From: Candidatus Aminicenantota bacterium
GTDB taxonomy: Bacteria; Acidobacteriota; Aminicenantia; UBA2199
DNA length: 64,000 nucleotides
Direction of reading: 5' to 3'
Assembly (NCBI GenBank): GCA_026393835.1
Contig: JAPKZK010000085.1
Location: 1 to 64,000, forward strand
Positions 20,678-34,592 of this stretch are shown piece by piece; within the stretch, counting starts at the first letter, position 1, and each line of letters starts with the position of its first letter. The notes below the pieces were generated by a model, which was not told the DNA's origin, did not search any database, and worked only from the letters and a program-made list of their open reading frames with translations. The translations under genes and the position numbers were made by a program.

Positions 20678-20708
<31 letters not shown>

Positions 20709-21177: not shown

Positions 21178-21206
21178 ATTATATTATCGTTCCAGGGAAA
21201 AGTCAA
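21178..21206 (-). promoter_or_regulatory. Consensus promoter of the HU-like gene
   Basis: On the minus strand TTGACT (21206-21201), 17 bases, TATAAT (21183-21178). The start point would be about 30 bases ahead of the HU start codon. The phased array begins immediately upstream of the -35 box. Confidence 0.85.
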
Positions 21207-21209
21207 CTT

Positions 21210-21330
21210 CGCGTCGCGAAAATAGAATTTCGTGTCCCGAAGTTTCAACTTCGTGGCCCGAAGTTTTAGGATCCTTACGGGATAACTAAGTTTTCCTTAC
21301 GGGATAATTTTTTTTTCCGGCGGGATAATG
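21210..21330 (-). repeat. Six-unit 21-bp-period array upstream of the HU promoter
   Basis: Units align at 21217, 21238, 21259, 21280, 21302 and 21323 (steps 21, 21, 21, 22, 21). Three have the core TCGTGTCCCGAAG or close variants, and three have CCTTACGGGATAA or close variants. Spacing is kept while sequence drifts in steps. The array occupies the place of an UP element or upstream operator of the HU promoter and also lies upstream of vapB on the other side. Confidence 0.8.
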
Positions 21331-21356
21331 GATTATTGAGGGAGGATTTTTTATTT

Positions 21357-21390
21357 TCGTGTGTTTCGCGTGTTTCGCGTGTTTGGCGGG
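21357..21390. repeat. Short-period TTTCGCGTG repeat
   Basis: TCGTGTGTTTCGCGTGTTTC and a further copy, period about 10, belong to the same dispersed family as the CGCGAAACACGCGAA element at 18914. It lies between the HU array and the vapB promoter. Confidence 0.6.
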
Positions 21391-32380: not shown

Positions 32381-32515
32381 CTAAACCGTCAGGCGTTTCC
32401 GGCCCTTTCTTCTTCTGTTGTTGAGAACGGCTCTGCCACCCTTGGTGGACATTCTTGATCTGAAACCATGCGTGGTTTTTCGTTTCCTATTGTTTGGTTG
32501 ATAAGTTCTTTTCAC
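32381..32515 (-). CDS. rpmH: 50S ribosomal protein L34
   Basis: A 44-residue L34 with the typical sequence [20 protein letters not shown] and a basic tail ending RKGRKRLTV. The start is GTG at 32515 with AAGGAG about nine bases upstream. It is too short for common ORF cut-offs but unmistakable. First gene of the rpmH-rnpA-yidD-yidC-jag-mnmE operon, 30 bases before rnpA. Confidence 0.97.
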
Positions 32516-32550
32516 GGTGTTCAACTCCTTTCAATTTGAATTTAAGTTAT

Positions 32551-32579
32551 ACTATATACAAAAAAAGAGTTCTTGTCAA
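32551..32579 (-). promoter_or_regulatory. Promoter of the rpmH operon
   Basis: On the minus strand TTGACA (32579-32574), 17 bases, TATAGT (32556-32551): almost consensus. No DnaA-box cluster is visible nearby, so this is not obviously the replication origin, although rpmH-rnpA is often close to it. Confidence 0.85.
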
Positions 32580-32639
32580 GAAGAAACCGGGGAAAAAAGT
32601 CGCGGGGCGGAATAAATGTCAATTTTTATGGTTCTATAC

Positions 32640-33045
32640 GCACGTCCAGGTTTATTCTCGGCGCGCGCAAGTGTCGAGAACGCAAGCGCAAACGACGAGA
32701 TCGCACGTGCAAGTACCGAGTTAGCATGTGCGATAGTCGTTTCAGCGTGTGCAAGAGGTGTTTTAGCGCGTGCAGGTGGTGTTTTAGCGCGCGCAGGTGT
32801 CGTTTTAGCATGTGCAAGAGGTGTTTTAGCGCGTGCGAGTGTCGTTTTTGCGCGTGCAGGAGGTGTTTTAGCGCGTGCAGGTGTCGTTTTAGCGCGTGCA
32901 GGTGGTGTTTCAGTATTTACAGTACCACTATTCGAATGTACATGGGGCGTGTTTGAATCCGCAGGGGGTGAGGATGAATATGCAGGGAACGAATTTATGC
33001 ACGCAGGCTTGAAAGCGCAGCAGGTATTTGACCCGCAGCATCCCC
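32640..33045. repeat. Long 21-bp-period array (18 in-phase units)
   Basis: The core GTGCAG, or a variant such as GCGCAA or ACGCAG, starts at 32644 and recurs every 21 bases without slip up to 33001: 32665, 32686, 32707, 32728, 32749, 32770, 32791, 32812, 32833, 32854, 32875, 32896, 32917, 32938, 32959 and 32980. Central units follow AGCGCGTGCAGGTGGTGTTT. Outer units are strongly diverged, yet the phase holds. It fills the 763-base gap between the rpmH and NSS transporter genes. Because 21 is a multiple of three, all frames are open over hundreds of bases, giving heptad-repeat translations on both strands, but none has a convincing ribosome site. Confidence 0.9.
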
Positions 33046-33222
33046 AAAAAACAAGGGTTTGAGACATTGTTTTCAAAGAAAGAAAAACCAGGGCCGTGCA
33101 AGGAGGGTAGGGGCGCCGCCCCTTTTTGATAAACAACCTGGACCCGCCCAGTGCCGGCCGTCATACAGCAATATCTTCAATGTGGTGCGTTTCTTGTTCC
33201 TGAAAATATACGAAAATTTTCA

Positions 33223-33251
33223 TTGACAATGAGTGCGGCTTATGATAAAAA
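33223..33251 (+). promoter_or_regulatory. Putative promoter of the NSS transporter
   Basis: TTGACA (33223-33228), 17 bases, TAAAAA (33246-33251). ATGGAGG precedes the start codon at 33279. Confidence 0.6.
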
Positions 33252-33278: not shown

Positions 33279-34592
33279 ATGACAAACAGGGAACATTGGG
33301 GTTCGAAAATCGGTTTTATCCTGGCTGCCGCGGGATCGGCCATCGGGTTAGGGAATATCTGGCGGTTTCCTTATATGACCGGCAAAATGGGCGGCGCTGT
33401 TTTTTTAGTGGTTTACCTGGGGGCGGTTATTGTTGTCGGACTGCCCATAATGCTGGCGGAAATTGCGCTGGGCCGCGCCACTAATAAAAATCCCGTGGGC
33501 GCTTTCACGGCCATTAAACCCAAAGGCGGTTGGAAACTGGTGGGATTCCTGGGTGTGTTGACCGGTATCATGATATTCTCCTTCTATTCCGTTGTGGCCG
33601 GCTGGTCCGTGGGCTATTTTTTGAAATCCTTAACCGGCGAGCTCAATAATATCGACAGTACAAAAGCCGGTGAAATATTTGCCACGTTCGTTGCCAATGG
33701 GACCTGGCAAGTTATATTAACCGGCTTTTTTATCTTGATCACCGCGCTTATCGTTATGATGGGAGTTACCAAAGGCATTGAACGAATGTCCAAAATAATG
33801 ATGCCGGCGCTTTTTGTTATTTTAATCCTGCTGGTGATTCGCTCGGTAACGCTCCCCAACGCCGCCGTCGGCCTGGAATTTTATTTAAAGCCGGATTTCT
33901 CAAAAATAAACCCGGAAGTGGTAATAGCGGCGATGGGGCAGGCTTTCTTCAGTCTCAGCCTGGGTATGGGGGCGATGATGACCTATGGTTCTTATATGAG
34001 TAAAAAAGACAATATCCCTTCCGCCGGCGGCTGGGTGGCATTGCTGGATACGTCCGTCGCCGTGCTGGCAGGGTTTATGATATTCCCGGCCATGTTTTCC
34101 GTGGGCGGTATCCAACCCACCGAAGGACCCGGCCTGGTATTCCAGGTGCTGCCGATTATATTTTCCAAAATACCGCTGGGTATCATCGTGGGGCCATTGT
34201 TCTTCATACTCCTGATCCTGGCCGCCTTAACTTCCACTATTTCCTTACTGGAAGTGCCCGTGGCTTATTTAATCGATGAAAGGAAATGGGGCCGTAAAAA
34301 AGCCAACCTCGTGGTAGGAATTCTGACCTTTCTTTTCGGTATACCTTGCGCGCTTTCCGGCAAATTCCTCGGGTTGTGGGATTTGATCTGGGGGAATTTA
34401 TCCCTCAGTATCGGCGCTTTCTTTATCGCCCTCTTTGTGGGGCATGTTTGGAAAACCGCCAATGCGCTCCGGGAAATCAGCCAGGGCACAAAGACATTCA
34501 AGCTCGCCGGGCTGTGGGCTTTCTGGTTGAAATACATCTCGCCGGTGATTATTCTCCTGATCTTATTGAGTAAAATTTTGTCCTCCGGTTGA
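33279..34592 (+). CDS. Sodium-dependent symporter of the NSS/SNF family
   Basis: A 437-residue LeuT-fold transporter that takes up amino acids or related amines with Na+. The first helix carries the family signature GFILAAAGSAIGLGNIWRFP, including the unwound glycine region that binds Na+ and substrate. Later motifs include FFSLSLGMGAMMTYGSYMSK. Length fits bacterial eleven-helix members. It stands alone; substrate cannot be assigned. Confidence 0.94.
   Translation: MTNREHWGSKIGFILAAAGSAIGLGNIWRFPYMTGKMGGAVFLVVYLGAVIVVGLPIMLAEIALGRATNKNPVGAFTAIKPKGGWKLVGFLGVLTGIMIFSFYSVVAGWSVGYFLKSLTGELNNIDSTKAGEIFATFVANGTWQVILTGFFILITALIVMMGVTKGIERMSKIMMPALFVILILLVIRSVTLPNAAVGLEFYLKPDFSKINPEVVIAAMGQAFFSLSLGMGAMMTYGSYMSKKDNIPSAGGWVALLDTSVAVLAGFMIFPAMFSVGGIQPTEGPGLVFQVLPIIFSKIPLGIIVGPLFFILLILAALTSTISLLEVPVAYLIDERKWGRKKANLVVGILTFLFGIPCALSGKFLGLWDLIWGNLSLSIGAFFIALFVGHVWKTANALREISQGTKTFKLAGLWAFWLKYISPVIILLILLSKILSSG

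Follow-up and report, generated by a model that had tools for sequence, protein, structure and literature searches.

A degenerate array of 21-bp units lies between rpmH and a sodium:neurotransmitter-symporter (SNF) family gene in the genome studied here, and it raises the question of whether the spacing of such units, as opposed to their sequence, is being maintained, and if so by what. The array belongs to a stretch of 64,000 nucleotides (hereafter the window) that comprises positions 1 to 64,000 of contig JAPKZK010000085.1; the genome of the window is referred to as G000 and was compared with three other genomes of the genus, G001, G002 and G003, the last of which represents a sister species. 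The repeat features concerned are the following:

32644–33021, no strand assigned: 18-unit degenerate 21-bp-phased array of the GC-type family with a palindromic GCNYRNGC core, recognised by lag-21 identity and homologous GC-type arrays
32738–32910, no strand assigned: best conserved block of the window array (TRF: 8.2 copies, consensus CGTTTTAGCGCGTGCAGGTGG, 0% indels)
32917–33021, no strand assigned: degenerate but in-phase right end of the window array, like right ends elsewhere
21195–21363, no strand assigned: second, weaker 21-bp array, with an ortholog (L313, 12797–13349) in the sister genome G003

When the region 32640–33045 was compared with itself, identity reached 0.62, 0.59 and 0.56 at lags of 21, 42 and 63 bp and was 0.17–0.37 at all other lags from 5 to 69, while the top 150-bp stretch of the array gave 0.787 vs a window mean of 0.281 (sd 0.049), about 10 SD above it. 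The 18 units are in strict 21-bp register with zero slip, and no indels were obtained by wraparound alignment. The exact 21-bp phase over 18 units claimed by an earlier sequence-only reading of this DNA is thus confirmed by the clear lag-21 autocorrelation peak and the unbroken register, and its remark that the outer units share little beyond the core also stands, mostly CA(G/A) of the core being retained there. GC-type homologs of the window array occur elsewhere in the genome and in G003, other GC-type arrays of the genome have right ends resembling 32917–33021 (DNA ..TTTGAATCCGCAGGG..), and the right end of one GC-type array could be compared between species with its ortholog, at a different locus. 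With 18 copies of 21 bp, the array has the repetitiveness of minisatellites or prokaryotic satellites (units of 10–200 bp, at least 4 copies).

The immediate surroundings of the array contain the following features:

32383–32520 (approximate, by eye), minus strand: rpmH, left neighbour, recognised from sequence and collinear with G003 up to window position 32620
32551–32579, minus strand: promoter-like site TTGACA-17-TATAGT facing rpmH (consensus scan, 11/12 matches)
33046–33133, plus strand: 88-bp dispersed element directly 3' of the window array, present in numerous copies both here and in G003
33217–33246, plus strand: weak promoter-like site ahead of the SNF symporter gene (consensus scan, 9/12)
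33279–34592, plus strand: sodium:neurotransmitter-symporter family gene, right neighbour (Pfam PF00209, E 3e-71)

The window array is therefore positioned between the divergent promoter-like sites of rpmH and of the SNF gene, beginning about 60 bp upstream of the one facing rpmH. The gap was rightly described as gene-free, since no recognisable gene is present between rpmH and the symporter gene, only mechanical ORFs on both strands. Comparison of the rpmH gap between related genomes, which the same reading had proposed as informative, gave a different result: collinearity of G003 with the window stops at 32620, past which its genes are different, so that the array is absent from the orthologous locus and the window copy is not conserved in place. 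The 88-bp element, which appears to be a terminator that is mobile or repeated, holds a terminator-like hairpin, GGGGCGCCGCCCC-TTTTT, at 33109–33123; further copies of this repeat were seen in L002, L004, L006–L015 and L017–L019.

The window array is not an isolated case. In an unbiased sample of 811 kb from the same 8.2-Mb genome (one all-N contig discounted), 23 arrays were found at lag 21 (24 by a second criterion) vs no more than 3 at each of the remaining non-harmonic lags between 10 and 40, and the periods determined by TRF for intergenic arrays were mostly 21 and its multiples. The sampled arrays are intergenic, and their density of about 28 per Mb extrapolates to roughly 240 per genome. 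The unit length of minisatellites is unconstrained, whereas here the 21-bp period dominates the array set. Clustering of 43 arrays by profile placed 11 in one family, 5 in another and some in three small groups, with about 20 left as singletons, the family of 11 being the GC-type family of the window, which is over-represented because its members were fetched by pattern. This amounts to about 20 motif clusters, most array motifs being mutually unrelated, and the derivation of all motifs from one founder array was rejected on these grounds, although complete sequence turnover is still conceivable. Dyad symmetry is enriched (16/43 arrays), with dyad covariation confined to a few arrays. Three arrays of a TCA type (L048, L051 and L071) have the core TCANNTGA with CANNTG within it and are predicted to be strongly curved; in L048 and L051 the TCA-type units run in phase into GC-type units inside a single array.

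Among the other members of the genus, three arrays were found in 172 kb of G002, two in 89 kb of G003 and none in 39 kb of G001; other genera of the family were sampled over about 300 kb and yielded none, save for one inside an ORF in G013. A pattern scan of GTDB returned mostly high-GC genomes, but as the pattern itself imposes 21-bp spacing, this result says nothing on enrichment elsewhere.

Orthologous arrays make it possible for the conservation of phase to be separated from that of sequence. Orthologs in G003 were found for arrays L066, L072 and L047 as well as for the second window array, and the G003 arrays L321 and L323 have counterparts in G000. Between the two species such arrays differ by about 25–32% substitutions with net gaps of 21 bp; in the pair L066/L351 phase is held for about 505 bp at 68% identity, the sole net gap being exactly 21 bp. 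Unit number differs between species, with about 7 vs 40 units at L047/L061. Only 2 phase-breaking gaps (1 and 2 bp) accompany about 304 substitutions, compared with 44 gaps per 767 substitutions in control noncoding DNA. Since detection of the arrays relied on periodicity in a single species of the pair, perhaps half of the 17 expected breaks could have been missed; corrected for this bias, about 9 would be expected and 2 were seen, a deficit that persists and that is based on few orthologous loci. At these few loci, indels have not accumulated with substitutions in the way that neutral decay of minisatellites would entail. Within arrays, few indels were observed vs 4261 adjacent-unit substitutions; 1-bp slips occur in L059, L076 and L101, and the small gaps of the initial array alignments were mostly compensating pairs produced by the alignment, not slips. 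The proposal that phase outlives sequence is upheld by these diverged orthologs with their 21-bp net gaps, as well as by a period that is common to about 20 unrelated motifs.

The arrays are also concentrated near particular genes. Within the 811-kb sample, 13 genes belonging to three families (hereafter module genes), namely XRE-type helix-turn-helix regulators, PQLLE proteins of about 250 aa and proteins of about 130 aa, are found no more than 700 bp from an array, vs 1.2 expected and a maximum of 7 in 3000 permutations. The ~250-aa helical proteins match the NCBIfam family NF052641 ('PQLLE family'), to which at least one of the ~130-aa proteins has a weak match. PQLLE copies number 55 in G000, 33 in G003, 37 in G002 and 2 in G001; the remaining 138 genomes of the class gave no convincing match, and elsewhere in the phylum the family is scattered, with 1–3 copies. 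Ten PQLLE genes were drawn from the PQLLE list independently of the arrays, and 7 of these have a 21-bp array in the 1 kb or less upstream, vs 4.6% of random 1-kb segments. Modules with an XRE and/or a PQLLE gene within about 1 kb include L066, L072, L074, L085, L089, L092, L097 and others. Among the modules looked at, most arrays stop 19–131 bp short of a start codon that usually has a good ribosome-binding site.

This association does not extend to every array: 9 of the 25 in the unbiased sample are near module genes, and well over half have no XRE or PQLLE gene within 700 bp. The window array belongs to the latter, given that no XRE, PQLLE or H130 match was found among the window ORFs and there is accordingly no XRE-array-PQLLE module there, although XRE genes are enriched beside arrays as a class and PQLLE genes lie beside many of them. 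Arrays resemble one another more where their XRE proteins do (Mantel r 0.78), but solely above 50% XRE identity, for which simple co-duplication is a sufficient cause. The proteins linked statistically to the arrays are thus XRE-type regulators, and no evidence was found connecting the window array with the HU-like protein that the sequence-only reading had put forward for a pull-down. At L089 (15817–18021), a tandem pair of XRE genes precedes two dissimilar 21-bp arrays, which gives the impression of one array for each regulator, and in L365 and L366 near-identical arrays lie upstream of two paralogous PQLLE genes, which suggests joint duplication of array and gene. A defence system was considered as a candidate and rejected, PADLOC having given only generic HTH matches. 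No PQLLE protein was found on plasmids, phages or viral contigs, no credible relative was found in the PDB, and the literature search on 'PQLLE' yielded neither a paper naming the family nor a description of its link with arrays. The array association is a genomic lead on a family that has no recorded function in the sources searched.

B-DNA completes a turn every 10.5 bp, so that no whole number of base pairs below 21 makes up an integral number of turns (here two), and therefore all units of such an array lie on one face of the helix. The period is fixed at 21 bp, phase is retained between species, the orthologous arrays tested are noncoding and the arrays are concentrated beside XRE and PQLLE genes; in our best reading, they would be scaffolds for protein binding upstream of promoters, with helical phase under selection. 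Each 21-bp unit would be one putative binding site on the same B-DNA face, and a dimeric or oligomerising DNA-binding protein, with an XRE-type regulator as the first candidate, may coat the array as a one-sided filament beside the promoter. Selection would then maintain spacing, leaving the sequences of each array and of its binder free to drift. A putative binder over a promoter-side array would account for the phase conservation, the position and the link with regulators alike. The explanation as a whole, in which the window array belongs to a class of noncoding arrays with 21-bp phase that is specific to the genus, is given a probability of roughly 45% and is thus tentative. The window array itself may be a dispersed copy of such a scaffold, now between the promoters of rpmH and SNF, which point away from each other, and its function is the least certain part of the interpretation, because it is of the dispersed GC type, has no XRE or PQLLE neighbours and is missing from the locus in the sister species. 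The siting of many arrays just upstream of regulator and PQLLE families suggests a scaffold that is read via spacing rather than sequence. A further-reaching version, which we consider doubtful, would be a genus-wide spacing code, in which arrays lying upstream of hundreds of promoters, all at exactly two turns per unit but differing in sequence and each paired with an XRE-type binder that evolves alongside it, might control the expanded PQLLE family, selection acting on phase and not on sequence. As an estimated few hundred arrays of mostly unrelated sequence share one conserved period, it becomes directly testable whether DNA can be selected for helical phase alone.

The main rival to the scaffold reading is a mutational ruler without function: some replication or recombination process of this genus would produce duplications sized in units of two helical turns, and the proximity of XRE and PQLLE genes would be due to co-duplication of fast-evolving regions. 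We regard this as possible but unlikely. It agrees with the wide variation in unit number seen at L047/L061, with higher-order periods that are multiples of 21 (42, 63, 168 and 189 by TRF), with the dispersal of the GC-type family, mostly without associated genes, and with the fact that homology to the sister genome stops at the array border both at rpmH and at L072. Against this, old and diverged arrays are still in phase, with 2 phase-breaking gaps where about 9–17 would be expected at the noncoding rate, and both the promoter-side position and the 13-vs-1.2 gene association are left unexplained. Intrinsically curved or loop-forming DNA, acting without a sequence-specific protein, was among the possibilities raised by the sequence-only reading, and any static bend does add up at a 21-bp period; under a wedge model, strong curvature is predicted for the TCA-type arrays, the L080/L094/L097 group and L101, some families reaching P<0.01. 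Curvature was nevertheless not borne out as a general property, the median P being 0.45 over 38 arrays vs unit-permuted controls and that of the window array 0.18; it accounts for some array families but not for that of the window, and this explanation is regarded as very improbable.

That the arrays encode fast-evolving heptad-repeat proteins (in the window, LARAGGV on the plus strand or TPPARAK on the minus strand) is suggested by the equivalence of 21 bp and 7 codons and by the ORFs that cross the window array on both strands, yet a palindromic GCNYRNGC core by itself leaves ARA-type heptads readable and ORFs open on both strands. Three-periodic conservation was significant (p<0.05) in 1 of 43 arrays, mismatches in the orthologous pair L066/L351 are distributed by codon position as 49/55/57 with about 30% synonymous changes in every frame, which indicates that the sampled arrays are noncoding, and in the open frame of the end common to L047 and L061 about 3 synonymous and 15 nonsynonymous changes were counted by eye. 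Stops are present in all frames of L061, the 1-bp slips already mentioned interrupt three arrays, and Pfam gave no match. The earlier conclusion that no protein gene can be justified is thus sustained for the sampled arrays, and protein coding is regarded as very improbable. The codon-structure test was run on orthologous pairs and the window array has no ortholog; a weak third-position excess found in GC-type arrays alone (0.29 vs 0.21, with 45% synonymous changes in one frame) leaves a small probability of a coding past for the window family. Action as a transcribed leader or noncoding RNA, terminated in the window by the hairpin at 33109, is improbable as well. It is favoured by that terminator-like hairpin downstream of the window array, by a plus-strand folding z of −2.7 and by array ends lying just 19–60 bp before the start codon in some modules, but the minus strand folds nearly equally (z −2.15), as expected of palindromic repeats, the A-form helix repeats every 11 bp and not every 10.5 bp, and no Rfam match reached the gathering score.

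Among known systems, iterons and cooperative operator arrays (at plasmid origins, partition sites and phage repressor operators) consist of direct repeats at whole helical turns to which dimers bind cooperatively, and XRE-type repressors bind cooperative operators. Such systems usually have few sites and one motif per replicon, in contrast with the 6–40 units per array, the estimated few hundred arrays and the mostly array-specific motifs seen here. CRISPR arrays are likewise regularly spaced, but in the arrays described here no constant repeat alternates with unique spacers; the entire unit is similar among copies at a period of 21 bp, in accordance with the initial judgement that the window array is not a CRISPR. 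Prokaryotic minisatellites and satellites (PMC6749651) resemble these arrays as noncoding tandem repeats of 10–200-bp units with some dispersed families. Their survey by Subirana and Messeguer (2019, PMC6749651) gave a median of 0–3 per Mb with varied unit lengths, whereas here there are about 28 per Mb with a single locked period, mostly unrelated motifs and phase conservation between species. No report matching 21-bp phased intergenic arrays was found in the literature search. Scattered heptanucleotide tandem repeats (TTCATCA, GGAAGAA, GAATGAT and CATCATT) make up another, distinct class of short repeats here, observed at window positions 20679, 22560, 43173 and 58124 and at L099:9264–9369.
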